A program made the position numbers and the translations under genes. Positions 5,330-42,854 of a stretch of DNA of 42,854 nucleotides are shown here, in pieces. The notes beneath the pieces were generated by a model, which saw only the letters and a program-made list of their open reading frames with translations, searched no databases and had not been told where the DNA came from. Each line of letters begins with the position of its first letter. Position 1 is the stretch's first letter. The DNA is from a virus: positions 1 through 42,854 of the IMG/VR virus record IMGVR_UViG_3300033148_002128; one strand, written 5' to 3'.

Positions 5330-5623
5330 TTATTTCCTTTTAAATCTTAAGTTGAATGTCTCTACTAGAAAAGTGGAGACATTTTCAGCAATAACCTCTT
5401 CTAGTTCTGTTGATACATCTGATTGCCTAACTCCTGTTCTATTACATATAGCGTGGATTAACTCATGTAGTAGTACTTGCATCTCACAATTAACGAGAGT
5501 TATTTGCGACTTCTTAGGTTCATACAATCCTTCTAAATCGTTCCCATCATCATCCTTAAGCTCTTTAGAAAGTTTTATGGTTACGGTCTTACCGAAAACA
5601 TCTATAGATTTAGGAGGTTTCAT
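5330..5623 (-). CDS. Mini zinc metallopeptidase-like protein (HELIH)
   Basis: 97 residues. HELIH at 53-57 is a gluzincin-type HExxH zinc site, and the ELEEVIAE helix at 73-80 supplies a candidate third Glu ligand. Small single-domain HExxH proteins are common in phages (SprT/IrrE-like fold), but their substrates are generally unknown. Translation is coupled to the upstream phosphoesterase by an ATGA overlap. Candidate roles are processing of a phage protein or attack on a host regulator; neither is shown here. Confidence 0.75.
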   Translation of the reverse strand: MKPPKSIDVFGKTVTIKLSKELKDDDGNDLEGLYEPKKSQITLVNCEMQVLLHELIHAICNRTGVRQSDVSTELEEVIAENVSTFLVETFNLRFKRK

Positions 5624-6387
5624 ATCTTCTCCCTGAAATCATAATAATTATCTCCCCAAGTAGCAGTATGTCCGTTTAGGTGTATTTGGTGTATGTGAAA
5701 TTCATCGTCATTTATTATATCGGCGATTATACAGGCTTTCTGCCATTGTTCATGGCCCTTCATAAAGGCATAGACTAAATTATCATAAGCATTAATATTT
5801 CCCAACCAACCGCTAAACCATGCGTGATATATCTCTCCAGACCCACCAGTAGCACAGCTATGTTGAACCCTGTGAGTACAGGCATAAATGTAGCTAACAT
5901 CCATTTTCTTTAGTAGTGACGTTCTGGCACCATTTACTCCATATGAAGGTGGAGAGTGGACTACTTTTAATTTATTATTTAATGAGTAAGGTATCTGATA
6001 GGGTAGCCAATCTATATTTAAGGATTCTAAGCCTAGTTGCTTCTCTAATCTTAATATATTCCAAAACAATGGACATTTATCCATTACGAATCGATCTAAT
6101 CTATGTTCGTGATTGCCGTACTGCATCAATATCTTAATGTCTGGGAAGGCTTTTCTTAGTTTGGTGAGGAAATCTTTACCTGCTTGAAGCTCACTTTCTA
6201 GTGTTTCTTTAATATCAGGGTGTTTGGGGCCATGAGAATTTAATGTGTAGAAGTCCAGTATATCCCCATTTAATACTAGCTCATCTATCTTAGCATCTTT
6301 AAAGATATTCAATGCCAGTGCTATAGCTTTGTCATCTTGATAAGGGATATGAAGGTCGTTTATTATTCCAACTCGCCAGGTACTCAT
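5620..6387 (-). CDS. Calcineurin-like metallophosphoesterase
   Basis: 255 residues from ATG 6387; a TTG one codon upstream is an alternative, but AAGGA is better placed for the ATG. Motifs of the two-metal phosphoesterase fold are clear: D11-x-H13, G41-D42, GNHE at 91-94, VVH at 142-144 and a late TH (171-172). Such phage enzymes are usually DNA exonuclease or phosphodiesterase-like, or remove phosphates from nucleotides; the substrate cannot be read from sequence. Lies in the leftward island between the small terminase and the zincin. Confidence 0.88.
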   Translation of the reverse strand: MSTWRVGIINDLHIPYQDDKAIALALNIFKDAKIDELVLNGDILDFYTLNSHGPKHPDIKETLESELQAGKDFLTKLRKAFPDIKILMQYGNHEHRLDRFVMDKCPLFWNILRLEKQLGLESLNIDWLPYQIPYSLNNKLKVVHSPPSYGVNGARTSLLKKMDVSYIYACTHRVQHSCATGGSGEIYHAWFSGWLGNINAYDNLVYAFMKGHEQWQKACIIADIINDDEFHIHQIHLNGHTATWGDNYYDFREKI

Positions 6388-6422
6388 CAAACATCCTTGT
6401 TATATGATTAATTATGTCTATT

Positions 6423-6872
6423 CTACAGTAAGTCGCTATCGTCCTCAATAACTTTCGACTCTACTTCTATAGGTAAATTAGCCTCTAATTCATCTAAACT
6501 ATCAGGAACTCCAGTAGCTATTTGGAATACTACGTTACCTTCACTCTCTATAATTTGTTTATCTTGGTAAACTTCGTTGTGTTGATTCTTTAGTAGGAAG
6601 GTTAAAGTAGAGCTATTACCTTTAGTCTCTCCCGTAGCCTGATCTATTGCCATATCTTCCATAGCACCTAAGTTCATTGACTGACCTATCTCTACAGCTT
6701 CCTTAAAATCCTCATGCTCCCCCATCCATTTCTCTACTTTCTTAGTAGTAACACCTACGGAACCTGCGAAACTAGCTATGCTCTTCCCTGTTTTAAGGTG
6801 GTTTAGTACCTTAAGTATGAATTTATCAGTATATCCTCCCTTATAAGGCATGATCGGTTCTCTAAACTCCAT
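6423..6872 (-). CDS. Terminase small subunit-like HTH protein
   Basis: 149 residues. The N-terminal half is a helix-turn-helix (IASFAGSVGVTTKKVEKWMGEHEDF) followed by a helical segment AVEIGQSMNLGAMEDMAI and FLLKN, the arrangement of phage small terminases that recognise packaging DNA. The C-terminal third is acidic and ends EDDSDLL, the tail motif shared with several replication proteins. Its start overlaps the upstream nuclease stop by one base (TAATG). It sits far from terL, on a separate island, which is unusual; a general DNA-binding regulator is the alternative. Confidence 0.62.
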   Translation of the reverse strand: MEFREPIMPYKGGYTDKFILKVLNHLKTGKSIASFAGSVGVTTKKVEKWMGEHEDFKEAVEIGQSMNLGAMEDMAIDQATGETKGNSSTLTFLLKNQHNEVYQDKQIIESEGNVVFQIATGVPDSLDELEANLPIEVESKVIEDDSDLL

Positions 6873-7327
6873 TATAGTAATTCCTCTGCTTCTAGTTCAC
6901 TTCTCATCTTCTCAGTATATTTAACTCTAATCTCTCTAAGATCCATTGCATTTTTATCGTCAACATACCCTACAGCGAACTGCATAAAGTCTATAAAATC
7001 CGTAAAATCCATAGTTATCAATAAAGGTTTACCATTCTTCTTATGAACTACGGTTGGAGTTGTACCATCTCGCCTGGAGTCTGTACGTGCTTGCTCCATA
7101 GCATTATTTATATTTAGATTCTCTACAGCTTTAGCTTCAAAGTTAAAGGGTAAATCAGTATGTATGTCATGAGAGAATAGACCGTCGAATTGTACAGCTC
7201 TACGTGCTTCAAAACCTCTATCTTTAAGTATATTAGCTATACGCCTCTCCATAACCTTCCCCTTATTACGAGAAGCTTTACCTATCTGGGAACGTGTCCT
7301 TTTCTTCTTACCTACTAATTCCGTCAT
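6872..7327 (-). CDS. PD-(D/E)XK nuclease, Holliday-junction-resolvase-like
   Basis: 151 residues with AGGAG upstream of ATG 7327. Candidate catalytic residues follow the Hjc/PD-(D/E)XK order: E27 in helix VMERRIANILKDRGF, D54 in SHDIH, and E64-x-K66 in FNFEAK. The N-terminus is very basic (KKKRTRSQ..K), suiting DNA binding. Likely cuts branched DNA during replication or before packaging, consistent with being the first gene of an island that also holds a small-terminase-like gene. It ends EAEELL, a weaker version of the shared acidic-Leu tail. Confidence 0.75.
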   Translation of the reverse strand: MTELVGKKKRTRSQIGKASRNKGKVMERRIANILKDRGFEARRAVQFDGLFSHDIHTDLPFNFEAKAVENLNINNAMEQARTDSRRDGTTPTVVHKKNGKPLLITMDFTDFIDFMQFAVGYVDDKNAMDLREIRVKYTEKMRSELEAEELL

Positions 7328-29777: not shown

Positions 29778-31444
29778 TATAACCTCTGACAGAACTCAGT
29801 AGCTTTAACTACTTCTCTGCTCAATTCTGGATTAATCTTATTTAGTGATTCTGGTATAGAGTCTATCTGAGATAGCGATTCAATGTCTAGATCTATATCC
29901 TGCTTTAGAAGGGTAGTCTCTGCTGGGACTTCGTATTTTACTTCCATCCCATCTAGTTCTTTGTATACTTCTGGAGAGTAGAATACGTCCGACTCTGCAC
30001 TATGAAGGTACTCTATCTCTTCCTTTGCAAGATCTTCGTATTTACTTAAATCTTCTTTAGATAGATCTCTAAGGTTTTGGTCATCAACACCTTTCATTGT
30101 GAACTTATCTTTATCGAATACATGAACTCCAAAGTCACTATCAGTGCCTCTGAACGAACCTTCAGTATCTTTAATGTTGAATTTATATCCGTCAAAACCT
30201 AGTTCTTTAACTACATTCTGAATAGCTTCTGCTAATTCTGGCTTCTCAGCTTTAGTTGCTGTTTCATTAACGGCTTCTATTATATCTCTAAGAGTGGCAT
30301 CTTTAGTTAAAGACTCTACTTTCTTAGCTAATTTATCGTCTATTTCTTTTATTTTACCTACTATACTCTCTTTAAGAATATCGCTAGGCTTGGCATCCAC
30401 CTCTAGTAAACTAGTCTTAGTTAAGTCTAGCTCGAGTATCTGACCTTTCTCACCTTCTAGTATTGAAGTTGCTTCCTTTACTGCGAACTCTCTATTAGTT
30501 ACAGCTATTACACCCTCTCCAAGATTAGACTCAAAAGAGGATTGTGTTTTATTATTAAACGTCCGATTAGAACTTCTGTGAGCTGCATAGGTCTTCCCAG
30601 AATACTCAAATTTCTGAGCATCTTTTACTTCAAACTCTAGTCTAGGAGTATTTCCAAATCTCTCCTCATCTAAAGCTCTACCTAGGTGGCTAGACGGCTT
30701 CTTACCGTTCTCAAAAGCATTTAAGTCGTCGGCAGCGAATCTCTTAGTCCTACTAGGATTCTGAAATGCCTTACCAAATCCATCTATAAGTCCCGCAAAT
30801 AATGCAGAATACATAATATTATCGTAGGCTTCTTCTTGTGAAAGAGTCTCACCATTTAATTGTTTGGCCATAGATAGAAGAGGATTCTCAAAAGCTGCAG
30901 CGGCCATGGCATTTACACCAACCGTTTTAGCTACCGATCCCACTCCCGTCTCGAAGAACTTAGCAGCACTACCTGTCAGTGCTAAATTTCTCACCCCTGG
31001 GAGTGCTGCGAATCTGGAGCCCAATGCTAATGTTAGAGCTTCAGCCCCCATATATATCGGCATATCGACTATATTTCCAGCTAGTCCTCCGAGGAGTCTA
31101 GCTGATGTAGAGTCTACACTTTGTTGTATATATTCATTCTTAATAGCTTTATCTGTCTTTGCTTTAGTCAGTATATTCTCTATCATAGTGCCTGGGAGAT
31201 CGGGATCCAAACCCATTTCTCTCATCTTATCTTCTGGGAAATGTTGTCTAGAGAGTTGTCTAGCTGTCTGAGTAAATGCATATCTAGCAAAGTTACCCAT
31301 AATAGTATCAGTAATAGAAGTCTCTAACTGACTTGAAGCTGCTTCAGCCCATGAGAAAGATGGCGTAACTCCAGTAATAGCGTCATATCTACTAGGTAGA
31401 GTCTCTGGATTTTGAAATACATCAAACCGATTTAACTCTGCCAT
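29777..31444 (-). CDS. Internal virion protein with ART-like region
   Basis: 555 residues. The first 230 residues have small, Ala/Gly-rich, partly hydrophobic helices (LLGGLAGNIVDMPIYMGAEALTLALG). Residues 285-450 follow the pattern of ADP-ribosyltransferase-like domains in phage polyvalent/MuF-type proteins: YAAHRSS near the start, GEGVIAVTNREFAVKEATS, a G-x-ILELDL strand, LGFDGYKF and a final FGVHVFDKDKF (compare 'GYDG...YVVFDP.KI'). An injected enzyme acting on host proteins is plausible; catalytic competence is not proven. Confidence 0.6.
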   Translation of the reverse strand: MAELNRFDVFQNPETLPSRYDAITGVTPSFSWAEAASSQLETSITDTIMGNFARYAFTQTARQLSRQHFPEDKMREMGLDPDLPGTMIENILTKAKTDKAIKNEYIQQSVDSTSARLLGGLAGNIVDMPIYMGAEALTLALGSRFAALPGVRNLALTGSAAKFFETGVGSVAKTVGVNAMAAAAFENPLLSMAKQLNGETLSQEEAYDNIMYSALFAGLIDGFGKAFQNPSRTKRFAADDLNAFENGKKPSSHLGRALDEERFGNTPRLEFEVKDAQKFEYSGKTYAAHRSSNRTFNNKTQSSFESNLGEGVIAVTNREFAVKEATSILEGEKGQILELDLTKTSLLEVDAKPSDILKESIVGKIKEIDDKLAKKVESLTKDATLRDIIEAVNETATKAEKPELAEAIQNVVKELGFDGYKFNIKDTEGSFRGTDSDFGVHVFDKDKFTMKGVDDQNLRDLSKEDLSKYEDLAKEEIEYLHSAESDVFYSPEVYKELDGMEVKYEVPAETTLLKQDIDLDIESLSQIDSIPESLNKINPELSREVVKATEFCQRL

Positions 31445-34035
31445 TAGAAGAATCTCCCGAAGAACCCTTTAGACTCATCTACTACACCTGGAATACCTTT
31501 AAGGCTTTCCAAGGGTAGCTCTAAAATTCTCTTATCTGTATCCATAACAGGCTCCGACCATTGCCCATTCTTATCTTTAATTCTAAATATTAACCTATCT
31601 CCATCTGGAATAGGGGCTATTTGTACATTACCTTTATTCAAGAACTCAAAGAAAGTATTCTTTATCTCTTGTTTGCTCTTACCTAAAGTAACTAAATCTG
31701 GAATATACCTAGAGAAATCTATCTTAACATCTGGAAATTGTTTGAATAAGTTATCTCCGTCTGAGAAATATCTCATTGATCCATCAGCTATATCCTCACT
31801 AACTCCACTTCTCTGTAGTTCACTTTTATAAAAAACTCCTGCATTTGACCCTTGATCGAACGAATGGAAGTTAGCTGTAAATAGCTCTTTAGATGCTTGA
31901 TCTATAGCATCTCTGCCTCCACCTAGCATCATAGCTCTACCTGCAACCATAGTTACATAGTTGTTAGCTTGTTTCTCAAACTCAGATGTATTTGTTTTAG
32001 CTTTAAGTGACTTAAGGTATGGTGCCAGTTTGGACCTAGACATTCTCCTAACAGTAGCTTCAGATGAATCTGGGCTAATGTCAGAGAAGTTTTTCTTTAT
32101 TGTGTTGTAGTTAGATATTACATCTAGTCCAAGTGCTTGAGCCTTAAGACCTTCTGCAGTCTGGGGGAACATAGCTGTCTCGGCTACTCCGGGGTTTAAC
32201 CCTCCCTTCCCTCTCATTTCAGTAATAAGACCGTAATATTTTTCTTGATGAATACTTCTTAAGTCTTGCAATTTCTCTGCCAACTGTGTCTTCCCAATAA
32301 ATCCAGATTCTGGCTTTAATTGCTCATTCATCGTAGATGATAGTTGAGATAAGTACGAAGATTTATACGGAGTCTGCATGAACTTAGGGACTCCGAGCTG
32401 ATCTTGTCTCGAGGATACTATTTGCTCAGCTCTACCTAGTGCCGATCTGGCACCAGCTATATCTCCATTTGCCTCTAGTTGTAGGAAGTTATTGAACTCC
32501 CTATCTGCTTGAGGGTCATTAGCGTAAGTGTATTCTGACTTCATAGAAGCTCTAGCTCTTTGCATCTCATGCGCAGCCAGCGTTGACTTAGCAGCTCTCC
32601 CTGCTCTCTTAGCGAACAATGGGTCTTTAGCTATGGCTCCAGCTCCGAGGGATTCTAGCACCTTTTCTGTGCTTCCCACGAGGCTATCTATTCTATTTAA
32701 AGCCGTACTGTTGTTAGCCCATACATTGGAATCATTAACTTCTCCCTGCACTACCGCTATGGCCAAGGCTTCTTTTTGATTATTCTTAGTAGTTTCATCT
32801 CTCCCAGAGTTGTCTATTCTTGCAAATAAACCCTCTAATACTTGAGAATCCGCATGACCGGCTACTCCAGGTCTATATCTCATCTTATCTGAGGTAGTAT
32901 CTGAGAAAGCAGCTTTTGCATTACTTATATCTGAGTCTAATTTCTTATTTGAAACTTTCTTGTTGGCATCCATTTTTCTAAGGATATCCAACATATGTCT
33001 TTTCTTATCCGCTGGAGTTATGAACCTAGACAGTTTCTCTGTCTCTGGCACTACTCCAGTTATGTCTATTGGCTTATCGAAGTTTATAATCTGCTCATCT
33101 GCTACTACAAAAGTCTGTCCAGATTCTGGATCAAACCCTGTAATCTTTGGCTCTACACCCTTCCTTCTTATTAGGATATCTCCGTCTGCAGTTACCTTCA
33201 TCTTATCGATATCTGACTCTGGTACCCCTAGAACACCAGATAGAACTTTCTTTGCCTCCCCAGCGAACTCTTCATCTTCGAATAGTACTGGCGCATCTAG
33301 TTCTCTTATTGCATTTTTTACTTGATTATTGAATTTAATTGAAGATTCGAAGAATGAATTGGCAAATGATGCCGATCCGTTCTCATATATACCTCTAGCT
33401 TCGTTGTCTGTGTATATACCTCTAGCTACTCCAGAGGTTACATTACTACGTAAATCGGAAGACTTACCTTCTGCCATTGACTTGAGACTACCTCCAGTAG
33501 ACTCTAATAATTTAGCATCTACTCCTAATAACTCTTTAGACCCAGTAGAAATAGCCTTATTTGTATCAGCTATAGTAGTTACTTTTAACTCTCTGGCTTG
33601 GAATAATTCTGCTGCCATTAAAGATTGTTGTTTAGCTGATGCATCCTTTCTAGAATATGCTTGAGATGCCATGTCAGTAGGTGAACCCCCTTTTACACCT
33701 TCATCAAAATCGTCTTCCCATTTCTTCATAGAATCTAAATAAGAGGTCCCGTCTTTCAAGAGTCCCGTCTTAGCATCCATTTCAGATTGAAAGTTTCTAG
33801 CTACTTCTTGTCTGGCCAACGATTTATCGTCTTTCCACGCTCGAGAGAAATTCTCTGCTTGGTCTACTTTCTGCTGTAATAGGAATTTATTAGCTAGATC
33901 TGCACCTTGTTGACCGATATTACTTATAGTTTTAGCTACAATACCAGCTCCAGAGGTATCTATACCTCCCGATTGCACTCTTTGATCTATAGTCCCTTGA
34001 GTAGATCTCAAGTTAAATGAGCTTATTTTTGGCAT
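31444..34035 (-). CDS. Internal virion protein, 863 aa
   Basis: Mostly helical, rich in Ala, Lys, Ser and Asp. The N-terminal 60 residues (FNLRSTQGTIDQRVQSGGID...IGQQGADLANKFLLQQKVDQA) resemble the start of T7 gp15-like internal core proteins. No enzymatic motif seen; no transglycosylase signature could be found. Part of the block 34503-27462 that by order (gp14-, gp15-, gp16-like) should make the ejection apparatus. Confidence 0.66.
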   Translation of the reverse strand: MPKISSFNLRSTQGTIDQRVQSGGIDTSGAGIVAKTISNIGQQGADLANKFLLQQKVDQAENFSRAWKDDKSLARQEVARNFQSEMDAKTGLLKDGTSYLDSMKKWEDDFDEGVKGGSPTDMASQAYSRKDASAKQQSLMAAELFQARELKVTTIADTNKAISTGSKELLGVDAKLLESTGGSLKSMAEGKSSDLRSNVTSGVARGIYTDNEARGIYENGSASFANSFFESSIKFNNQVKNAIRELDAPVLFEDEEFAGEAKKVLSGVLGVPESDIDKMKVTADGDILIRRKGVEPKITGFDPESGQTFVVADEQIINFDKPIDITGVVPETEKLSRFITPADKKRHMLDILRKMDANKKVSNKKLDSDISNAKAAFSDTTSDKMRYRPGVAGHADSQVLEGLFARIDNSGRDETTKNNQKEALAIAVVQGEVNDSNVWANNSTALNRIDSLVGSTEKVLESLGAGAIAKDPLFAKRAGRAAKSTLAAHEMQRARASMKSEYTYANDPQADREFNNFLQLEANGDIAGARSALGRAEQIVSSRQDQLGVPKFMQTPYKSSYLSQLSSTMNEQLKPESGFIGKTQLAEKLQDLRSIHQEKYYGLITEMRGKGGLNPGVAETAMFPQTAEGLKAQALGLDVISNYNTIKKNFSDISPDSSEATVRRMSRSKLAPYLKSLKAKTNTSEFEKQANNYVTMVAGRAMMLGGGRDAIDQASKELFTANFHSFDQGSNAGVFYKSELQRSGVSEDIADGSMRYFSDGDNLFKQFPDVKIDFSRYIPDLVTLGKSKQEIKNTFFEFLNKGNVQIAPIPDGDRLIFRIKDKNGQWSEPVMDTDKRILELPLESLKGIPGVVDESKGFFGRFF

Positions 34036-34044
34036 CTATATCTC

Positions 34045-34503
34045 CTATGGCGTTACGCCACCTTTCCCTGGTTTAACTTCTGCGGTCTTAGCTAACCCAA
34101 AACCTAGTGTAGCTAGTGATCCCAAGAATCCTGCTGTCTCTATCTGCTCTGCTGAACCTATTTGAGATTCTGCACCGATTCTAATCATGTTGGCTTCCCA
34201 CTCAGCAGCTCTATTATTTCTATCTATCTGCTTTGCTGTGCTTTCCACTGTGTTTCTAATTAAAGCTCTACTGGCTTCACCACCAGCTAGCCCCGATCCA
34301 GCTACTTGAGCAGCTTGAGTACCTTGATGGACTAAAGCACTCTCCATAAGGAGTTCATTATTAACTTGATTTCTAGAAAGAACTTCATTTGCTTTTAGAA
34401 AGGATAAATGAGCTTGTTGCTTCTTAGCTTCTGCTTGAGCTTTAGAGGACTTATATTGTCCGTAAGCTGCTACTAATGTAGATCCTATAGCTAGTGCTGC
34501 CAT
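34045..34503 (-). CDS. Internal virion protein, gp14-like
   Basis: 152 residues. Starts with a hydrophobic Ala/Gly segment (LAIGSTLVAAYGQY), then Lys/Ala-rich helix with Gln (SSKAQAEAKKQQAHLSFLKANEVL), a glycine-rich centre (GSGLAGGEASRALIRNT) and a second hydrophobic patch near the end. Size, composition and place after the nozzle gene match T7 gp14-like proteins that insert in the outer membrane at DNA ejection. Starts at the last base of the nozzle stop codon. Confidence 0.7.
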   Translation of the reverse strand: MAALAIGSTLVAAYGQYKSSKAQAEAKKQQAHLSFLKANEVLSRNQVNNELLMESALVHQGTQAAQVAGSGLAGGEASRALIRNTVESTAKQIDRNNRAAEWEANMIRIGAESQIGSAEQIETAGFLGSLATLGFGLAKTAEVKPGKGGVTP

Positions 34504-36521
34504 TATCCTACCTCTCCAGTTCCTCTAGATGATATACCTAATAATATTATAGGATGTATCGATGTGTTTTCAACTATTATAGTATGGTCTATTTCAGGTG
34601 AGCCGTCTACACTAACTTCCTTTACACCAGTAAAGTCTGCGCCATAAGTCACATCCTCTAGACTAGTCTCTGAAGTCCCTACACTTATACTACCATTTGC
34701 TTTATATAGACGTATCCCGACCTTATCCACTCTATTTAGAGCTATTTGAGCATCCCCTATTGGAGAGCCTTGCTGTATAGGTGTTGTCTCTATTCTAGCT
34801 TTGGGTAGGATAGCTTCAGTAAACTGAGTCGCTACAAAATCTGGAGATGTTACATAGTAAGTTCCATTTATGAATGTAGCATGGCCAGAAGCAAGGATTA
34901 GAATAAGATCTACATAATCTTCAGCAACACTGCTATATACCTTTATAGTAGTAGTTCCAGGTACAAAAACACCTGGATCGTATCTAGAAGGTAGAGAGTA
35001 GTCATCTCCGTCTATATCCACGAAGTAAAGTCTATCCACACCTATTAGATTGGAATCGGTTGTTGTGATACCTTCTCGGTAAAATAACAGTAGTGAATCC
35101 TTAAATTGACTCCTCATTAGTAGTACTGGCAGCCCGTTATAGTCTATTAAACCTGATATATCGTTGAAATCTATGTTTATAGATGCCCATCCTAATACCC
35201 CAGATGATTGATCTATAGATATTACTTTCAGCCCATTGGCATTTATATATATTCTTTTACCAGAATAATCGTAAGTCATTCTAGTTATATTACTAACATC
35301 TGGACCTAATATCCCTATATTCCTAGTAACATATCCTCCATTCTCCTCAGAGAACGACATTTCTCTAACTACCTTTCCACCTCTTTCTACGAAATAAGTA
35401 GAGGATTGAGCCCTAAAGGCTAGTCCTACTGCATGACTTCCGTATTTAGATACTGATCTAACTCGAGTAGTGGCTACTGTAAATATACCGTCTGATCCGT
35501 CCACTATGAACTCTTCAGTAGAAGTACCCATAGCTATATATCTCTCTGGCAAAAGCCACAATATAGGAGATACCTCAGTAGTAGAAGGTACTACGTCGAA
35601 TGCATTCTGATCCGATACGACCTCTCCTATTATCGGTAATGACATTCTCGCTAGGTTAAATACTACTGATGCCCACATAGAATCTATATTTGTATCTGTA
35701 TTAGCGAATAATAATCTCTCCTCGAAGAAAGAAGTTACTTTAGGCCAGTTACCATCATACCAAGCTGGGATACTATTAAGTTCGTAATTCCCATTAGCAG
35801 CGGCAGCTCCAACAGCTGCCACTGTCACGACTTTAGCCGAAGTAAATGCAGTTATTTTATATAGATAATCTACTGAACCAGATCCCAGTATTAGATAACT
35901 TCCTATCATACCAGATGTAAAAGTATCTTCTATGGCTATTACTGTGTTGCCGCCCAAAAGCTCTAGGTAGTTATCTAAGTTCCTATTCACTACAAAAGGA
36001 GTGGCAAGTGCTACTCTCTCCGCTGCCGATAGACTTGGGTTACCGTATTTCTCAGCATAGTCCCTGTATGTTATTATGTTGAAATCGTGAGTTCCCGTTT
36101 TCTCTATTACTATAGGCTGTACTGCCCCATCTAAACTGGTGAGGAAGGTGAATTTATTTATTGTTATACTAGTACCGAATACAAAATCAGCCCAGTAAGT
36201 TATATTATCTGTTACGTTTATAGAGACATCACTCATAGTGAAACTCTCACTTGATCCGTCTTGCTGTATTCTTCTTATTACAGCAGAACTACTCTCTATA
36301 GCGAAGGCATATATGTCTAGGAATGTGAATAAATACCCATTATCCGACCTTCCAGCCCAATTGGACCCCATACATTGAGTAAGTCCACCCTCTGTATTCA
36401 CTATGAAGTTGGTTACTTCCTTACCAGAATTAAAGTATTCTTTAATATCTGTTCTTCCTAGAAGTCTTGGATTTAATTCCCCATTAGAGAAACTGTATTG
36501 TGTGTATAGGAACTTGGCCAT
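34503..36521 (-). CDS. Tail nozzle protein (tail tubular B-like)
   Basis: 672 residues. The N-terminus FSNGELNPRLLGRTDIKEYFNSGKEVTNFIV...GGLTQ..G contains the widespread '[FG].GE[LV]SP.L.GR.DL..Y..G...L.NF.V...GG..RR.G' signature of podovirus nozzle proteins; the rest is beta-propeller-like. It forms the distal end of the short tail. The first base of the gene overlaps the end of the adaptor gene. Confidence 0.88.
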   Translation of the reverse strand: MAKFLYTQYSFSNGELNPRLLGRTDIKEYFNSGKEVTNFIVNTEGGLTQCMGSNWAGRSDNGYLFTFLDIYAFAIESSSAVIRRIQQDGSSESFTMSDVSINVTDNITYWADFVFGTSITINKFTFLTSLDGAVQPIVIEKTGTHDFNIITYRDYAEKYGNPSLSAAERVALATPFVVNRNLDNYLELLGGNTVIAIEDTFTSGMIGSYLILGSGSVDYLYKITAFTSAKVVTVAAVGAAAANGNYELNSIPAWYDGNWPKVTSFFEERLLFANTDTNIDSMWASVVFNLARMSLPIIGEVVSDQNAFDVVPSTTEVSPILWLLPERYIAMGTSTEEFIVDGSDGIFTVATTRVRSVSKYGSHAVGLAFRAQSSTYFVERGGKVVREMSFSEENGGYVTRNIGILGPDVSNITRMTYDYSGKRIYINANGLKVISIDQSSGVLGWASINIDFNDISGLIDYNGLPVLLMRSQFKDSLLLFYREGITTTDSNLIGVDRLYFVDIDGDDYSLPSRYDPGVFVPGTTTIKVYSSVAEDYVDLILILASGHATFINGTYYVTSPDFVATQFTEAILPKARIETTPIQQGSPIGDAQIALNRVDKVGIRLYKANGSISVGTSETSLEDVTYGADFTGVKEVSVDGSPEIDHTIIVENTSIHPIILLGISSRGTGEVG

Positions 36522-37072
36522 TATAACCTCGAGTCAAGAAATGTATCTATTTCGTAGCTAATAGGAGTTGATCCCATAGCGTTTAAGGATCCCGCTCTAC
36601 TTACTATTAATTCAGCTTCGGCAAATAAAGCCCCTTGTAGTGCATTGTTTTGAGTTAGAGAATATGCCATCTCTGAAGCTAGTACTAAGTACCAAGCCTT
36701 ATTGAAATTAGGAGTACGTTTTACGTTCTCATCTATCTCATATATGTATTTAATAAGTAATGTCTCTGTATTTGCTAGGATCTTACCACCCTCTACATAA
36801 TACTCTTCATCGTTATATTCTGAAACTATTTTAAGGTGATCTGCTGGGAGATCGAATTCGTGCGTGTACTCGAATGCTGGAGTACCTGATGAGGTTAAAG
36901 TAGCTCTCTTAAGAGCAAAGTCCCAAGGAGTCATTTCTAGAGTGTACTTTCTAGTACTCTCTAAGAAATCACTGGCAAGTTTTGCCCTTTTGTTGTTATC
37001 ACTCAAGGAGGCAATACGCTCCACACCTAGTCGCCCTAAAGCATTGTTTACGATTTCTAAGTCTGTTAGCAT
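36521..37072 (-). CDS. Tail adaptor (tail tubular A-like, gp11-like)
   Basis: 183 residues. MLTDLEIVNNALGRLGVERIASLSDNNKRA and ...TRKYTLEMTPWDFALKRATL are the hallmarks of the gp11/gatekeeper family ('A.N.AL..LG...I.S..D....A......Y...R...L...PW.FA..R'). Ring below the portal, linking head to nozzle. AGGAGGTGATATG shows a strong ribosome site. Follows the decoration-like gene and precedes the nozzle, the usual order. Confidence 0.9.
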   Translation of the reverse strand: MLTDLEIVNNALGRLGVERIASLSDNNKRAKLASDFLESTRKYTLEMTPWDFALKRATLTSSGTPAFEYTHEFDLPADHLKIVSEYNDEEYYVEGGKILANTETLLIKYIYEIDENVKRTPNFNKAWYLVLASEMAYSLTQNNALQGALFAEAELIVSRAGSLNAMGSTPISYEIDTFLDSRL

Positions 37073-37121
37073 ATCACCTCCGAGAAGATAGCAGAAACCT
37101 CACTAGGAGGGTTTTCTTTAA

Positions 37122-37580
37122 TTAAGCGTTTACATATTCAATCTCAAAAGAAATTACTCCGTCAAGTACGTTACCGTCCATTACTTCAGTACAAGTAAGG
37201 AAGATTTGTGTAGCTTCAGCGAATTTCTTATGAATCCCTACAGTAGCAGCTTCAGCATACTGAAGAGCAGCTTGTCCACCACCATTAGCAGCTAGAACAA
37301 ATGCATTAGGATCTTCAGCGTCTACACTGTTAGCTTTATGCCCTAGAGAGAAAATCCCTGTAGCACCTAAAGACTTGTCGATCTTAACTTTAGCAGCAGT
37401 AACGATTGAGTCAGCTGGGATATCTAAACCTAGAATCTCATCTCCAACCTGTGCAGCATAACCTAGTGTATAGAAATCAATCACTAGTCTTTTCTTACCT
37501 GCAATTTGACCCATCTCAACTTTCTCAGCTGGTTTGTTTATTCTTGCAAGCGTGTAGTTATCAGCGTTTTTAACAGCCAT
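37122..37580 (-). CDS. Head decoration-like protein
   Basis: 152 residues with a near-ideal AAGGAG site. Ala/Gly-rich, beta-like; LVIDFYTLGYAAQVGDEILGLDIPADSIVTAAKVKID and VISFEIEYVNA resemble phage head fibre/decoration proteins encoded just after the major capsid gene. Its outline is shared by the exported protein at 21029-21589. Probably binds the capsid surface. Assignment by position and fold pattern. Confidence 0.66.
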   Translation of the reverse strand: MAVKNADNYTLARINKPAEKVEMGQIAGKKRLVIDFYTLGYAAQVGDEILGLDIPADSIVTAAKVKIDKSLGATGIFSLGHKANSVDAEDPNAFVLAANGGGQAALQYAEAATVGIHKKFAEATQIFLTCTEVMDGNVLDGVISFEIEYVNA

Positions 37581-37617
37581 TTTTTACTCCTTGACTCCAT
37601 TCCTGGCAGTCATTAAG

Positions 37618-37637
37618 GGGGCTCACACTGGAGCCCC
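37618..37637 (-). terminator. Hairpin after the capsid gene
   Basis: GGGGCTC-ACACTG-GAGCCCC (plus strand), a 7-bp G+C-only-core stem 9 bases beyond the capsid stop, flanked by TTAAT on the downstream side and no long U-run. Either a partial terminator that sets capsid dosage or an RNA end-stabiliser. Confidence 0.55.
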
Positions 37638-37645
37638 ATAATTAA

Positions 37646-38602
37646 TTAAAGTTCTTTACAGATTACTTCAACAACTTGAACTTCTTCCATTCTTGAAGAA
37701 CCCATAGTCAGTGATCCGTATACTTGATTAGCAAAATGCTTATCTTTTCTTTCGTCGATACGACCCATAACTTCTTTCCCTAATGCACAAAGTACAGCAG
37801 AGTTAGCAGTAAAAGCAACACAACGTCTACCTTCAGCAGCAGTTACAGTACCAGAAGTAGCCCCTGGAAGCGTAGCTCCAGTATCTTTATCATAGTAATG
37901 ATCAGCAGAAAGGAATGGTAGTAATTCAGTAGACTCAAACTTGAATCCCATGAATGTATCAGCTTCACCATCAACTAGAGCTTTAACAGAGTTAAAGTCT
38001 GAAGATGTAACTTCTGTTGAACCTAAAAGGTCATCAGCTTGTTGAGCAGCATAAGCGAAAATTACCTTTTCACCTTTCTTGATTGCTTCTTCTTGCTTAA
38101 ATTTCTTTCTTACAGCTCTAAGAGTCTTAATGTTAAGACCAGTACCTATAAGTAGAGTACCGTCATGAGCTGCAATTTTTTGAGAATCTGGAAGAGGAAC
38201 AACATCTGTACCTTTCTTTCCACCATAAGCATTCCCTAAAAGACCTTCGATAACAACCTCATCGATATTTCTACCGAGGGCCATTGCGATTGCTTTAGCA
38301 TACTCATTCTCTGGATCCATGATTGTTCTGATTTTATCTTCTTTATCAACTAAATCCGCATCATAGAAGTCTTCCATAGTAACCATACGTCTACTATGAG
38401 GAGTATCAGAGAATACGATGTCAGAATGTCTTCCTTCTTTTCTCTTTACTGATCTCTTTCCAATTCTGTCCCAAAATGCAGACTCAGCCGCTTGGCTTTC
38501 CATTCTACAGTATTGTCTAAGTCTTGAACCTTCTTGTTGTGCTAAGTGCATTACGTTTGATGAAAACTGATCCACCATTGACGTAGTAATTTGTTGTGAC
38601 AT
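37646..38602 (-). CDS. Major capsid protein
   Basis: 318 residues, AGGAG well placed. The sequence, including MVTMEDFYDADLVDKEDKIRTIMDPENEYAKAIAMALGRNIDEVVIEGLLGNA, fits the phage capsid family often labelled Phage_capsid_2, with an HK97-type fold. Forms the icosahedral shell. It has its own promoter and leader and follows a terminator, so it is transcribed separately at high level. Confidence 0.9.
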   Translation of the reverse strand: MSQQITTSMVDQFSSNVMHLAQQEGSRLRQYCRMESQAAESAFWDRIGKRSVKRKEGRHSDIVFSDTPHSRRMVTMEDFYDADLVDKEDKIRTIMDPENEYAKAIAMALGRNIDEVVIEGLLGNAYGGKKGTDVVPLPDSQKIAAHDGTLLIGTGLNIKTLRAVRKKFKQEEAIKKGEKVIFAYAAQQADDLLGSTEVTSSDFNSVKALVDGEADTFMGFKFESTELLPFLSADHYYDKDTGATLPGATSGTVTAAEGRRCVAFTANSAVLCALGKEVMGRIDERKDKHFANQVYGSLTMGSSRMEEVQVVEVICKEL

Positions 38603-38648
38603 ATAAATCTCCTAATGTTCACGTTAATATAAATTTCTTTGTCGATGT

Positions 38649-38707
38649 GGTTATCCCGATGGGGCCTATCTGGTTTTCATCTTTAAGGGGCCTGAACAGG
38701 TTATCCC
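38649..38707 (-). promoter_or_regulatory. Mirrored repeats in the capsid mRNA leader
   Basis: In the leader transcript the order is GGGATAACC (38707-38699), AGGCCCC (38693-38687), AGGCCCC (38667-38661), GGGATAACC (38657-38649). Each GGG/CCC pair can form a small hairpin with its neighbour. Ends 46 bases before the capsid start codon. Candidate RNA regulatory or stabilising structure. Confidence 0.5.
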
Positions 38708-38724
38708 ATGAAGTACGTAATTTC

Positions 38725-38754
38725 ATTGTAATGGTAAGTAGTTGTTCGTGTCAA
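38725..38754 (-). promoter_or_regulatory. Strong sigma70 promoter of the capsid gene
   Basis: On the minus strand: perfect TTGACA (complement of 38749-38754), 18-nt spacer, TACAAT (complement of 38725-38730, 5 of 6). The best promoter match seen in the window, starting about 115 bases before the capsid ATG and immediately downstream of a terminator. Confidence 0.78.
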
Positions 38755-38756
38755 AT

Positions 38757-38788
38757 AAAAAAACCACCCTATATAGGATGGCTTTTTT
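38757..38788. terminator. Intrinsic terminator before the capsid gene
   Basis: Minus strand: six A, then GCCATCC ... GGGTGG, then seven T. Stem extends about 13 bp counting the A/T arms. A symmetric A/T-flanked hairpin able to stop transcription both ways. It separates scaffold from capsid and lies just before the capsid promoter. Confidence 0.82.
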
Positions 38789-38864
38789 GAGAGACAATTT
38801 TAACACGAAGGTTAAATTTAAACACACACAATTATATTGTAAGGTTAATAATTCCCCGTGTCCA

Positions 38865-39779
38865 CTATCTTCCTTCTTTCATTTTAAATAACTTACCTAC
38901 TTTAGCTACTACATCTGCATGGGATGGGTGGCTCTTATTCCAATAGGCTCCTTTTCTGTCGCCCATGATCTCATTAATCTCAATATCAGCATCTGCTGGA
39001 GACAATGCGCCATCACTAGGTTTACCTTGGAATCCATCTTCCTTGAACAATTTCTGTCCAATAGCAGCTAATGCTTTAATTACTGCTGGGTTTGACCCGA
39101 TTCTAGGATCGGCAAATACTGCTTTAATAGCTTCATCATTAACTACTTCGTTAAGAACTCGAGTCGCAATAGCTACATTAGGCTCATATGCTTGACCCCA
39201 TTCAGTCTTTAATCCTTCTAGGTCAGACTTAATAGACTCTGCAGTAACACTAGCAGCATTATCTAGATCAGAATTAGCATTACCTTCCATCATCTCTACT
39301 AGCTTCTGTGCTTGAGCTAATGGCATACGGTTTTCTCTTGCGAAAGTCTTTAGTGCCGTTACTCTATCCTCAGACAGTTTGGACTCTTCTGCCCTATTTA
39401 ATGTGTAATCTACTTCATTTGGCTTGTATCCTAGCTTCTCATAGAAAGCATCTAGCTCTTCTGGACTAGAGTTCTCTGTAGGAAGTACAGCTTTATTCAT
39501 ACCTACTTGCTTTTGTCCGTGAACATAAGACTTCATTAGGTTACTGTAGTTAATCTCCCCACTCTCTCTATCCACAAACCCTTTTAATGAGGGCTCTTCT
39601 CTCAGAGTTTCGTCCATCCCTTCTGGGAATTTAACTTGTAATTCCCCATAAATAGACTCTATTGCTGCGGCTCCTCCATCTGGAATAATCTCTGGTCCTG
39701 GCTCTGGAGCCCCTCCAGACAATGCTGAAGCTGGTTCGCCTTCTAATAATAAGTTCTCAAATCCGAATCTAAATTTCAA
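38865..39779 (-). CDS. Capsid assembly scaffold protein
   Basis: 304 residues, acidic, helical. N-terminal low-complexity part rich in Gly, Pro and Glu; centre and C-terminal region helical with charge alternation; the last residues are basic (KLFKMKEGR), typical of scaffolds that bind the capsid inner surface by a positive C-terminal helix. Position between portal and capsid genes is the standard scaffold position. Overlaps the Bbp19-like gene by 11 nt. Confidence 0.82.
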   Translation of the reverse strand: MKFRFGFENLLLEGEPASALSGGAPEPGPEIIPDGGAAAIESIYGELQVKFPEGMDETLREEPSLKGFVDRESGEINYSNLMKSYVHGQKQVGMNKAVLPTENSSPEELDAFYEKLGYKPNEVDYTLNRAEESKLSEDRVTALKTFARENRMPLAQAQKLVEMMEGNANSDLDNAASVTAESIKSDLEGLKTEWGQAYEPNVAIATRVLNEVVNDEAIKAVFADPRIGSNPAVIKALAAIGQKLFKEDGFQGKPSDGALSPADADIEINEIMGDRKGAYWNKSHPSHADVVAKVGKLFKMKEGR

Positions 39780-40050
39780 AATAATTCTCCTGGTCTTTCT
39801 GTTTCTGCTCTAATATTTCCACATAAGCTTCTGGACTTACGTTTAGTTGTTCTAATATCCTGTGTACGATAGATTTAGCACCGTCATTGTAGGCCATACC
39901 TATTACTGTTGGATTCTTATAATCTACTGAAGGTCCCAAAAGACCTACCGAATCTATAAGATCGAACAATACAGCTCTCCCCTCTTCCGAGGAGAACGTC
40001 TTATCGTATGCAACTTTTATTTTCTTAGCTTTTTTACCCAGTAGATCCAT
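39769..40050 (-). CDS. Bbp19-like head protein
   Basis: 93 residues. The core DKTFSSEEGRAVLFDLIDSVG...NPTVIGMAYNDGAKSIVHRILEQLN follows the Bbp19-type pattern ('F....GR.VL.DL......FN.G.RS.V..IL..L'). These small proteins are encoded beside the portal in many podoviruses; their exact job in head assembly is unclear. Overlaps the portal end by 17 nt. Confidence 0.75.
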   Translation of the reverse strand: MDLLGKKAKKIKVAYDKTFSSEEGRAVLFDLIDSVGLLGPSVDYKNPTVIGMAYNDGAKSIVHRILEQLNVSPEAYVEILEQKQKDQENYFEI

Positions 40051-41683
40051 TCTCTGCTTCCTCTAGTTTCTTGATAGTGTCAGCTTCTTGATTCTGACTT
40101 TCAGCTTGTTGTTGCTGAGCTATCTGTTGTTGTCTCTGCTCTCTTATCTTCTTAACGTCCGACTCGCTTCTCATCAAGTCAGGACTAACATTGTATATCT
40201 TAAAGTTACGTCTTAGCAACTTATCACCATCAATTAAATCCATTACTTCTGGCTGGCTTCCAACAACAAAAGCTGTTGAATTGATAGCTCTAACCACGTT
40301 CTCAGACTGAGTAATTAACTGAGCTTGAGCAATAGTAGACCTATATTCAATCTCTAGGTCGAAATCCCCGCCCTTAGCATCTACAAACTCTTGTAGTTTA
40401 TCTGGCATCTCATCATAGATCCCTGCTTGTCCGAGTACATGTACTGTTCTATTGATAGTTGGTTTGAGTAGCTCTGTATCCATACGACCAAGTTGAGGTC
40501 CCATGAATCTGATCTGCTCATCTCTTCTCTGTAGAGTCTCAGTAGCAGTCATTCTATCTTGAAGAGGAGTTACTAACTTATCTAACATGAAGTGTTTCTT
40601 AATCATGTTATGCACTTGCTCGAGAATATCTAATCCAACTTGAGGATTCCCACCTGTAAATAGTGGTTCCATTCTGTCTTTAGACCCTGATCGGTAGTAA
40701 TTAACTCCAAAAGGTTTAATCTGTGGAGGAGTTAAGAATCCATTGTCAGGTATCTGCATAGGTGGAGCTATTGCTAGTTGAGCCCCTTGGATAGTTACTT
40801 TCTTCATAGCATTGGCCATCTTAATATCTGCCAATGTCTTCATAGCTGGAGATCTTCCGTAAGTCTCTACGTTAATCTTAGACCAACGAGGAGTAGCATA
40901 AGGCCATACTTCGAATCCAGACTTTCTTAAATACTTACCATTCTCCTTAAGAACATGTGTAGAAGCTATAGGGAAAGCTTTATTCCCGATCTCGCCTTTC
41001 ATTTCAGCAGCAGATCTCTTTGCTACCTGGTGAATTATACTAAACTTCTTATTGGGATTAGATCTAATCTCATCTTGGATCCAACCTAGAGTATCCTTAT
41101 CCATACTCTCTTCGAACTCTTGCATTACTTGACGACCATCGAACTCGTATTCACGAGATACGAAGTCTATAATACCTCTATTGTTCTCTCTCAAAACTAA
41201 CTCATAGATAGGTTCAGAATAGTATCTAACCCCTGTCTCTTCGTCGGCTTCAATTCTAAGGCTTGCAGTCCCTATCGAACCTAAATCTAAATATACTTCA
41301 TGAATCTCAGTCTGAAAATTAGACTGATTCATTGCTTTAATTGTCTTTAATGTTGAATCAAATAACCACTTAGCTACTTTCTCGTCTTCATCTAGTTTGG
41401 CATCTCCTGTAGATAGTCCGAACCAGATAATACTAGGATTAGTAAGCATGCCATGAAGAGCTGCAGCAAGATCATCATTAGCTGCAATTGCTTCTGTATC
41501 GAATAAAGTATTCGTGACTTTCTCGCCTTTAGTATGTTGTCCATATACATTATCTTTTCTAGGTACCACATACCTAGCGACTTGATCCCAATGGGAATCC
41601 CATGTAGTTCTATCGTTCTTTAGTTGATTATGTAGTTTAACGAGGGCCATGCCTCCACTATCATTGGTTACTACTTGTGACAT
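40034..41683 (-). CDS. Portal (head-to-tail connector) protein
   Basis: 549 residues. The N-terminus ALVKLHNQLKNDRTTWDSHWDQVARYVVPR and LHGMLTNPSIIWFGLSTGD match the T7 gp8-type connector family (head-tail connector, 'W..IA.Y..P'). The C-terminal tail is Gln-rich (QQQQIAQQQQ-like run) and charged. Dodecameric ring at one vertex through which DNA is packed and ejected. Length is usual for this family. Confidence 0.9.
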   Translation of the reverse strand: MSQVVTNDSGGMALVKLHNQLKNDRTTWDSHWDQVARYVVPRKDNVYGQHTKGEKVTNTLFDTEAIAANDDLAAALHGMLTNPSIIWFGLSTGDAKLDEDEKVAKWLFDSTLKTIKAMNQSNFQTEIHEVYLDLGSIGTASLRIEADEETGVRYYSEPIYELVLRENNRGIIDFVSREYEFDGRQVMQEFEESMDKDTLGWIQDEIRSNPNKKFSIIHQVAKRSAAEMKGEIGNKAFPIASTHVLKENGKYLRKSGFEVWPYATPRWSKINVETYGRSPAMKTLADIKMANAMKKVTIQGAQLAIAPPMQIPDNGFLTPPQIKPFGVNYYRSGSKDRMEPLFTGGNPQVGLDILEQVHNMIKKHFMLDKLVTPLQDRMTATETLQRRDEQIRFMGPQLGRMDTELLKPTINRTVHVLGQAGIYDEMPDKLQEFVDAKGGDFDLEIEYRSTIAQAQLITQSENVVRAINSTAFVVGSQPEVMDLIDGDKLLRRNFKIYNVSPDLMRSESDVKKIREQRQQQIAQQQQAESQNQEADTIKKLEEAENGSTG

Positions 41684-41825
41684 TAAGTACCCCTATTTTG
41701 CTTATTAGTTCAGATGTATTATCTTGTAATGTTGGATTAGAAGCAAGTACAGAAGTAGTTAAAGCTTTAATTCTCTTTAACTCCTCTCTCTGTTTCTTGG
41801 TAGCTTCCTCATTAAGTATTGCCAT
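41661..41825 (-). CDS. 54-residue protein before portal
   Basis: ATG at 41825 follows the upstream stop by 3 bases; the gene overlaps the portal start by 23 nt. A helical N-terminal half (EEATKKQREELKRIKALTTSVLA) and Ser/Asn/Thr-rich end. No clear ribosome site, so translation may be coupled to the preceding gene. No family recognised. Confidence 0.6.
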   Translation of the reverse strand: MAILNEEATKKQREELKRIKALTTSVLASNPTLQDNTSELISKIGVLNVTSSNQ

Positions 41826-41828
41826 TTT

Positions 41829-42158
41829 CTAGGCCAATACTGAAGTAAGTGAAGGTATAGTCGATACAGTACCCCCAACTAAAGTGGATCCACCAGTTTG
41901 CTCTCTAGATGTCAAAGCACTTTCACTTCTAGCTTTAAGTCTCTCACGTAGAGCATCTAACTCTCTACCGAGACCTTCTCTCAAATCGAAAGCCTTAACC
42001 TGTGTATCTACTTTAGCTATAGTGGGCTTCCCCTCTTCCGAAAGACCTGGCAATGTCTGACCTGCTTTTATGTCAACCATCATAGATGGCTTCATTCTAC
42101 CGAAATGCTCCATCTGACTCTGCAGACGTTTCTCTTGTTCTGATTCTGATCTAGCCAT
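41829..42158 (-). CDS. Hypothetical head-region protein, 109 aa
   Basis: Charged helical N-terminus (SESEQEKRLQSQMEHFGRM), a central loop with Pro/Gly and a helix REGLGRELDALRERLKARSES, then a Ser/Thr/Gly-rich tail. Similar short proteins sit between terminase and portal in other podoviruses, but I cannot name a family. Possibly a head or packaging accessory. Confidence 0.7.
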   Translation of the reverse strand: MARSESEQEKRLQSQMEHFGRMKPSMMVDIKAGQTLPGLSEEGKPTIAKVDTQVKAFDLREGLGRELDALRERLKARSESALTSREQTGGSTLVGGTVSTIPSLTSVLA

Positions 42159-42194
42159 AATTACTCCATTTTACCAATCTATTCTATCATATTC

Positions 42195-42647
42195 TTAATC
42201 TAGAATACTAGCAAGTTTTTTATCTCTCTGCCTCTTTCTGTACTCCCTACCCCCAACTATACTCTTACAACTCTTACTACAGAACTTGGTCCTCTCTGGC
42301 TGCAAGGTTGTGTAGTCAGATCCGCAGTGGGTGCATTTAGCTGGTACTCTTTTCTTCTTCTTCCATGTGTACTTCCTTATACGATCTAAGTGGGCTTTAT
42401 TTTCATCAGATCCGTAGTACTTATTCTTCTTTGCATGTAGGGAGGCGTGTTTAGACCAAGACATACACTCAAGGTTATCTATATCGTTATCAGCCCTATC
42501 GTGATTTTTATGGTGGATAACATGGCCGTCTGGTATGTCTCCGTTAAAGCTAGCCCATATATGCCTGTGTATCAGACCATTTGGGTGGTGGCATGAATAA
42601 TACCCATCCCTATTTTCATAGTATTTCCTACCGTTAAATTCCTGCAT
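42195..42647 (-). CDS. HNH endonuclease with zinc finger, next to terminase
   Basis: 150 residues; GGAG is close before ATG 42647. HNH_3-type core: RHIWASFNGDIPDGHVIHHK (first His and HH), NDIDNLECM. The tail contains a four-Cys site (CTHCGSDY ... CSKSC) and basic residues for DNA contact. No NUMOD4 segment, so it is a different subtype from the other six HNH proteins. Lies 12 bp after terL, a frequent homing site. Confidence 0.88.
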   Translation of the reverse strand: MQEFNGRKYYENRDGYYSCHHPNGLIHRHIWASFNGDIPDGHVIHHKNHDRADNDIDNLECMSWSKHASLHAKKNKYYGSDENKAHLDRIRKYTWKKKKRVPAKCTHCGSDYTTLQPERTKFCSKSCKSIVGGREYRKRQRDKKLASILD

Positions 42648-42659
42648 AATATCTCCGAT

Positions 42660-42854
42660 TTAAAATTCGAATATATCGTAACCCGAGTCGGCAGCAACTG
42701 GCAAGTCACTATATCCTTGACGCCCAGAGCCAAAGCCTGGAAAATAATCACAGGCGAAGTATCTAAACCCATCGGCAGCATGAGATGCCCAATTATGTAA
42801 AGGCTTATCTGAATACACCTTTAGTTTAGTGTCAAACTTTCTCTCATATGCAGC
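42660..42854 (-). CDS. terL: Terminase large subunit, C-terminal part
   Basis: This is the 3' end of the gene that starts at 1263. It includes the 114-bp overlap and then adds the tail PGFGSGRQGYSDLPVAADSG and a few more residues, ending DIFEF before a TAA stop (42660-42662). An HNH endonuclease gene begins 12 bp downstream, a typical position for a homing endonuclease next to a conserved target gene. The long Gly/Asp-rich, aromatic-ended tail may be the portal- or head-docking segment; that role is inferred from where terminase tails usually act. Confidence 0.9.
   Translation of the reverse strand, partial: AAYERKFDTKLKVYSDKPLHNWASHAADGFRYFACDYFPGFGSGRQGYSDLPVAADSGYDIFEF
42741..42854. repeat. 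Right copy of 114-bp terminal overlap
   Basis: Exact copy of 1-114. Removing one copy gives a circle of 42740 bp. From the start codon at 1263 through the join to the stop at 42660-42662 there are 448 codons in one frame, which is strong internal evidence that the join is correct. Confidence 0.97.

Follow-up and report, generated by a model that had tools for sequence, protein, structure and literature searches.

A twin-module RNA element between the promoter and the capsid gene in the leaders of many phages

In the Q-dependent late antitermination systems of phages lambda, 21 and 82, the late promoter is followed at once by a promoter-proximal signal. The capsid gene of phage T7 lies in a unit of its own, consisting of the phi10 promoter, gene 10 and Tphi. 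In phage HK022, the antiterminator put RNA (putL/putR) forms two stem–loops just downstream of the PL promoter, a bulge contacts the beta' zinc-binding domain, and stem I contains a four-base bulge, C26-G29 (PMC9378689). For the abundant pelagiphage-like podoviruses, little is known about how a phage that lacks an RNA polymerase of its own drives its long late operon. Here, computation shows a two-module RNA element in capsid leaders, together with how it covaries, where it lies relative to promoter and capsid gene, and how widely it occurs.

The capsid transcription unit of the window

The window, that is, the whole stretch of DNA analyzed here, is a 42.85-kb virus record with genes mainly on the plus strand up to about 20.0 kb and on the minus strand from 42.6 down to 20.2 kb. 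At 5330-7327, within the otherwise plus-strand half, lies a block of reading frames on the minus strand. Identity of the capsid protein to those of cultured phages does not exceed 43%, the nearest being those of pelagiphages. The features of the capsid region are collected in Table 1.

Table 1. Features at and around the capsid gene of the window (T1 and T2, first and second module; R1, covariance model described in the text)
Feature	Position	Strand	Basis or details
Portal-type protein	40034-41683	minus	
Protease/scaffold-like protein	38865-39779	minus	
Intrinsic terminator, predicted to stop read-through from upstream head genes	38757-38788	minus	16-nt arms, 38757-38772 and 38773-38788; MFE -15.5 kcal/mol, z -4.9, 0 of 200 shuffles equal
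-35 hexamer TTGACA	38749-38754	minus	Sequence; spacing to T1 kept in relatives
-10 hexamer TACAAT	38725-38730	minus	Predicted start near 38718
Two-module RNA element, whole	38640-38710	minus	Matched by R1 at 51.4 bits (E 1.8e-8); window itself among the 20 seed rows
Module T1, GGG-AUAA-CCU(GUUC)AGG-[C]-CCC	38687-38707	minus	Sequence, comparison
Module T2, GG-[C]-CCC(AUC)GGG-AUAA-CC	38649-38666	minus	Circular permutation of T1; equivalent registers exist
Ribosome binding site AGGAG	38609-38613	minus	Sequence
Major capsid protein gene	37646-38602	minus	PHROG 3437, E 2.2e-69
G+C hairpin 3' of the capsid stop, without U tract	37618-37637	minus	Folding; MFE -13.2, z -3.4

The first-pass annotation had placed an intrinsic terminator before the capsid gene and a TTGACA-18-TACAAT promoter directly after it, and both were confirmed. 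The terminator arms form a stable stem with a T run, upstream of the promoter. The promoter hexamers, which are 18 nt apart and thus within the 16-18 nt of sigma70 promoters, score 11/12, and the site is among the two best of 31 promoter-like sites in the region 30000-42854. Since this is a chance number of sites (32.4 expected), the promoter is credible because its place is conserved among relatives, not because such sites are scarce. The window contains no match to Pfam PF00940, the model of single-subunit (T7-type) RNA polymerases, hence the host RNA polymerase is the likely reader of this putatively high-output unit, as had been proposed. A match to PF00940 was absent from all 22 records searched, most of them bearing the module, while the three positive controls (T7, HTVC011P and P-SSP7) were all detected; the missing phage polymerase may reflect kinship only.

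Architecture and covariation of the twin module

The mirrored repeats that had been noticed in the leader are present: GGGATAACC occurs at 38707-38699 and 38657-38649, and AGGCCCC at 38693-38687 and 38667-38661, in the order A-B-B-A. At the DNA level these are direct repeats, and the mirroring resides in their order and in the RNA pairing. The comparison with the leaders of relatives showed that both module places contain G-C pairs (GG/CC) with a four-base bulge on the G side, which is AUAA, ACAA, ACUA, AUUA, AGUA, GCAA or GUAG, roughly R-N-W-R. The C side usually has one unpaired pyrimidine, and the second helix, X/X', is of variable sequence. The module can be written as GG-RNWR-X...X'-[Y]-CC, which is a 4x1 internal loop; GGGATAACC holds GG, the bulge and X, while AGGCCCC holds X' and CC. 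The hairpin loop closes X in T1 and the CC/GG helix in T2, so that T2 is a circularly permuted T1, which explains the A-B-B-A order in the window. Order and permutation vary among leaders, with T1+T2 in the window, T2+T2 in Baldr, and T1+T1 in ZP6, L127, L130 and L138. The leader of Vibrio phage QH contains GAGG-GUAG-CGGA(AGCC)UCCG-[U]-CCUC and GAG-[U]-CCG(GAAA)CGG-GUAG-CUC.

Further conserved sequences accompany the modules in some leaders. A short word (CACCGAAAA or TTTCGA-like; ACATCGACAAAG in the window) is located just 3' of T2 in many of them, for example L008, L025, L029, L035 and L218, and it may be part of the element. In marine loci such as L362, L366, L376 and L392, T1 and T2 are separated by a long conserved sequence (AAGCTTGTG...CAAGCGGAGTAGCTGCCC..AAGCAGTAGCA); it resembles two further hairpins, one of which is possibly a third module.

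Single-sequence folding of the window leader gave a z value of +0.42, which is no better than shuffles. T1 of the window alone folds into the proposed form at -4.1 kcal/mol, also not better than shuffles, and the outer hairpins are short and weak. For this reason the structure was tested by comparison. The MFE fold of the Vibrio phage CKB-S2 leader consists exactly of the T1 and T2 hairpins (z -3.6, 0 of 200 shuffles equal). Covariation was counted in 20 of 26 anchored leaders, the other six being left out because of long insertions; the sequences were aligned by MAFFT without structure, and the structure was read by eye. Paired cells amounted to 78.5%, compared to 65.1 +- 1.8 in shuffled alignments, a percentage that is biased upward because the structure was picked while viewing the same sequences. 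The stronger part of the evidence is provided by cells in which both sides changed, together with the slide control: 35 such cells were counted versus 13.5 +- 3.3 in shuffles, none of the 500 shuffles reached this number, and slid controls gave at most 10. In a model-fitted alignment there were 62 both-side changes versus 26.0 +- 4.6. Hence, covariation across related phages, which the first-pass annotation had named as a check, is strong, and its description of the leader as structured is supported by the relatives but not by the leader's own folding. These data indicate that the two-module RNA element is almost certainly real.

The folding of the window leader, taken alone, could also be expected of an ordinary promoter followed by chance repeats with nothing special about them; this is contradicted by the covariation and by the recurrence of the element, and is extremely unlikely. 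A DNA-level explanation would be that GGATAAT serves as a -10-like word, which induces a promoter-proximal sigma70-dependent pause for a Q-like factor. This word, similar to TATAAT, follows the predicted start at a short distance, and the putL bulge also contains a -10-like stretch (PMC9378689). However, the last-position T and second-position A of the -10 sequence are not conserved (GGATAACC, GGGCAATC, GGGTAGC), the base pairs covary as RNA, and T2 repeats the motif far downstream, which makes such a pause site very unlikely.

Occurrence among phages and capsid families

A covariance model, R1, was built from the 20 aligned leaders and searched against both strands of the window and 80 loci (504 kb). 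It gave 40 matches at E <= 1, all of them just upstream of a capsid gene and none elsewhere. Twenty of these come from the seed itself; the others comprise close duplicates, either of a seed row or of one another, plus roughly ten distinct leaders (L060, L069, L072, L077, L078, L067, L062, L025, L029 and L035) with E from 1.6e-4 to 0.5. There was no R1 match in 41 of the 81 sources, some of which hold no leader while others are too distant. In seven whole IMG/VR records the best match was located before the capsid gene, and all others had E of 0.06 or weaker. Each genome showed the element a single time, always in front of a capsid or scaffold gene and never ahead of an early operon. Among 27 stretches of named phages there were four matches, with E of 0.2 or weaker, those in capsid leaders being CKB-S2 (L216) and one of two in L202. 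In 33 loci picked from pattern scans R1 gave 12 matches at E <= 5, of which three were below 0.01 (L217, L405 and L288). Because R1 is narrow, distant leaders were assigned by reading them directly, by pattern scans and by covariation of the outer stem.

The pattern GGATAACCGNAAGGCC was scanned in IMG/VR (at least 120 rows) and pooled with its GGG form in GTDB genomes (20 stretches), which after removal of near-duplicates gave at least 77 distinct contexts, 18 of them from bacterial genomes. Among the matches listed, a gene recognized by a capsid HMM, which was built from these same phages, follows at 17-165 nt in 35 of 59 viral contexts and in none of the 18 genome contexts. The outer stem is outside the search pattern; in the 35 capsid-associated contexts among the matches listed it was Watson-Crick at 79 of 105 positions, versus a shuffled mean of 36.4 (maximum 55 in 2000 shuffles); the remaining 42 contexts gave 38 of 126. 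Other patterns were also found directly before such a capsid gene: GGGATAACCNNNNGGCCC in 10 of 89 contexts (at 59-111 nt), GGGATAATCCNNNNGGACCC in three of five and AGACCCNNNNGGGATAATCT in two of ten. The remaining pattern matches, mostly within reading frames, look like chance.

Genes of five capsid PHROG groups were found downstream of the module, four groups being represented by one or two examples each. The cases from other capsid families are single examples: L138, where a gene in the scaffold position is preceded by two modules of the T1 type (capsid PHROG 371/133), L130, with two modules (PHROG 9953), L304 (PHROG 212), L384, whose protein start is like that of L304, and L398 (PHROG 1357). 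Of 15 isolate leaders that were read, four (QH, 69E27.1, CKB-S2 and Baldr) contain a convincing module pair. In MW202510 and ZP6 the pair was recognized partly by eye, the automatic finder giving one of the two modules, and in HTVC010P, Hodr and MEP301 (the last by reading, without the automatic finder) the module is weak or doubtful. None was seen in the leaders of 1.182.O, 1.138.O, YeP5, Pf-WMP3, an Acinetobacter record and ZCVPP1. The module is also absent from the capsid leaders of T7, HTVC011P and P-SSP7, while epsilon15, BPP-1 and Vibrio phage 1.021.C, which belong to other capsid families, have almost no room before the capsid gene and are uninformative. The automatic finder detected at least two modules in 42 of 67 capsid leaders and in 201 of 1293 random 250-nt windows; because it is this permissive, single cases seen by eye are weak alone. 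The hosts range from Pelagibacter to Vibrio. The same module pair before the capsid genes of many very different phages points to a shared RNA control element. In several capsid genes (at L001, upstream of 861, L069, L072, L210, 1465, and L213, 1462) an apparent short hydrophobic N-terminal extension (MKLLN..., MKLNAI..., MKMSLIA...) precedes the aligned capsid start, which was not seen in the capsid gene of the window.

At the gathering score, Rfam 15 gave no matches in the window or in 11 loci, and a permissive search of the region gave only sub-threshold terminator-like matches. No account of such a capsid-leader RNA was found in the open-access literature covered by the search. The word capsid does not occur in the main texts of PMC2864571 and PMC8040213. 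Hence, the capsid-leader twin-module RNA is apparently previously undescribed.

Neighboring signals and possible partners

The proposal that the capsid gene has its own promoter unit gained support from the relatives. A sigma70 promoter scoring at least 9/12, with the -10 hexamer starting within 60 nt before T1, was found in 24 of 32 leaders; the median distance was 23 nt, which places T1 about 17 nt past the end of this hexamer. In 23 leaders the distance was 12-36 nt, compared to 1.1 expected from shuffles. Among 67 leaders, a terminator precedes the promoter in 11: it is often directly upstream, as in the window, L004, L030, L053, L057, L058, L059, L062 and L067, and weaker in L069 and L072. 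In 15 other leaders the DNA around the -10 hexamer and spacer is complementary to the early leader, with at most 2 of 60 shuffles as strong. The complementary strand is absent from the promoter's own RNA, because it lies upstream of the transcription start, and we read it as an anti-T1 that would mask the module in read-through RNA. An upstream complement to T1 would have no purpose unless T1 has to act in transcripts of its own promoter. In 14 of the 15 the complementary arm covers 5-15 nt of T1, although some overlap is expected by chance since the space searched for the right arm includes T1; a better argument is the strength of pairing, which reaches 15 nt in L020. Terminator and anti-T1 never occurred together among the 67 leaders (p 0.047, ignoring kinship), which is only suggestive of their being alternatives, because two of the 11 terminators (L069 and L072) are weak or far upstream. 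The inverted repeat over the capsid promoter is of variable spacing (L002, L003, L012-L023, L029, L049 and L064), which disfavors a DNA operator. In Vibrio phage QH (L210) a perfect 14-nt inverted repeat (GTGTTCTCCCTATG...CATAGGGAGAACAC) flanks the -10 hexamer without touching T1, as an exception to the anti-T1 arrangement.

The distance of the element is constrained not only relative to the promoter but also relative to the start codon, as the end of the T2 anchor is 29-50 nt from the aligned start codon in 25 of 26 leaders. The exception is L001, with 102 nt, where an in-frame upstream ATG would shorten the distance to about 40. This placement could be explained by binding of a phage- or host-encoded regulator of capsid translation or timing, as a dimer or as two monomers, to the modules. 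The specific conserved internal loop in two copies and the restriction to capsid or scaffold genes would agree with such a regulator, while the module is outside the ribosome site, T1 is tied to the promoter, and masking in favor of the own promoter is of no clear use to a repressor site. Because the capsid PHROG groups behind the module differ, the capsid protein itself is an unlikely partner, and its autoregulation is likewise unlikely. Overall, a regulator site is a possible but somewhat unlikely explanation. CsrA-type GGA sites were rejected on general knowledge, as the GUAG and GCAA bulges lose GGA, and so was GNRA tetraloop docking between the modules, as the loops of the close group are often not GNRA.

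The G+C hairpin after the capsid stop, to which a punctuating role had been ascribed, does exist, but its tail (CTTAATGA) contains no U tract, and it is probably not a terminator. Many relatives also carry a G+C hairpin 5-26 nt past the capsid stop, in most cases lacking a complete U tract, which makes termination at this site doubtful. Its recurrence in this form, and the location of the element at the 5' end of the message, would fit a stability cassette, in which the 5' modules block 5'-end-dependent decay and the 3' hairpin blocks 3' exonucleases, resulting in a long-lived capsid message. On the other hand, plain hairpins would suffice for this purpose, with no need of a conserved RNWR bulge, the outer hairpins of the window are poorly suited to it, being short and weak, and many leaders' capsid genes have no hairpin within 110 nt of the stop. 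We consider the stability cassette unlikely.

The reading that we prefer, with a probability of about 0.4, is by analogy with put that the partner is elongating host RNA polymerase, modified by the nascent RNA in a way that works like put without being its homologue. The leader RNA would carry the 4x1 internal-loop module twice, with T1 near the 5' end and T2 about 45 nt before the start codon, and would be made intact when transcription begins at its own sigma70 promoter. In the window the terminator would end read-through from upstream; many relatives would instead have T1 masked by the predicted complementary stretch. The modules would be recognized by something other than the capsid protein: the nascent T1+T2 RNA would bind a host polymerase that has just left the promoter, and the bound polymerase would resist pausing and termination along the long structural operon, as with HK022 put RNA. 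We infer that the element functions only when transcribed from its own promoter, that it is recognized in trans, that the polymerase is its partner, and that antitermination is the outcome. A polymerase partner could explain the tie of the element to its promoter, and the spacing between the promoter and T1 would suit an element that belongs to the transcription complex. A conserved host machine would also best explain the twin internal loop, its place first in the transcript, the insulation, the several capsid families, the varied hosts and the lack of a phage polymerase. Against a polymerase partner, put serves early operons while this element is found only before capsid or scaffold genes, the conserved distance of T2 from the start codon fits translation or stability too, put has no sequence likeness to the element, and the hairpins of the window are not beyond shuffles.

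Still more tentatively, the element could represent a widespread class of RNA-only factors, composed of two permuted modules, that modify bacterial RNA polymerase or some other conserved machine of the host; they would be active only in transcripts from the late capsid promoter, masked by anti-T1 in read-through RNA, and used by phages of several capsid families without their own polymerase. Because cultured phages of Vibrio, Alteromonas and Pelagibacter carry such a short, specific RNA before their capsid genes, the question of how the late operon is driven can be addressed in vitro. The element might also offer new access to the transcription or translation machinery of bacteria, and it might serve to recognize capsid genes in metagenomes.

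The evidence is of the same kind as for published candidate structured RNAs (PMC2864571 and PMC8040213), namely covariation and a conserved place before a class of genes. With HK022 put (PMC9378689), the element shares two predicted, covarying stem–loops in nascent RNA near a promoter, a four-base bulge, and its nature as a phage element serving host polymerase. It differs in that its two modules are circular permutations of one another, where put has stem I, stem II and a triplex, and in its location in capsid leaders only, while put is found in early operons, at two promoters. HK022 putL, located in L201 by the segments quoted in PMC9378689, contains neither the GG-RNWR module nor an R1 match, hence kinship by sequence was rejected; the put core described there (A3-C72, the triplex, A9-G35 and U28) is not found in the present element. 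As in the gene 10 unit of T7, the capsid gene of the window has a promoter of its own and a structure past its stop, but the promoter is of the sigma70 type, there is no single-subunit polymerase with its cognate promoter, and the window is without a Tphi-like U-tract terminator. The arrangement also resembles the Q systems of lambda, 21 and 82, where a promoter-proximal signal immediately follows the late promoter, with the difference that the signal here is a covarying RNA pair.
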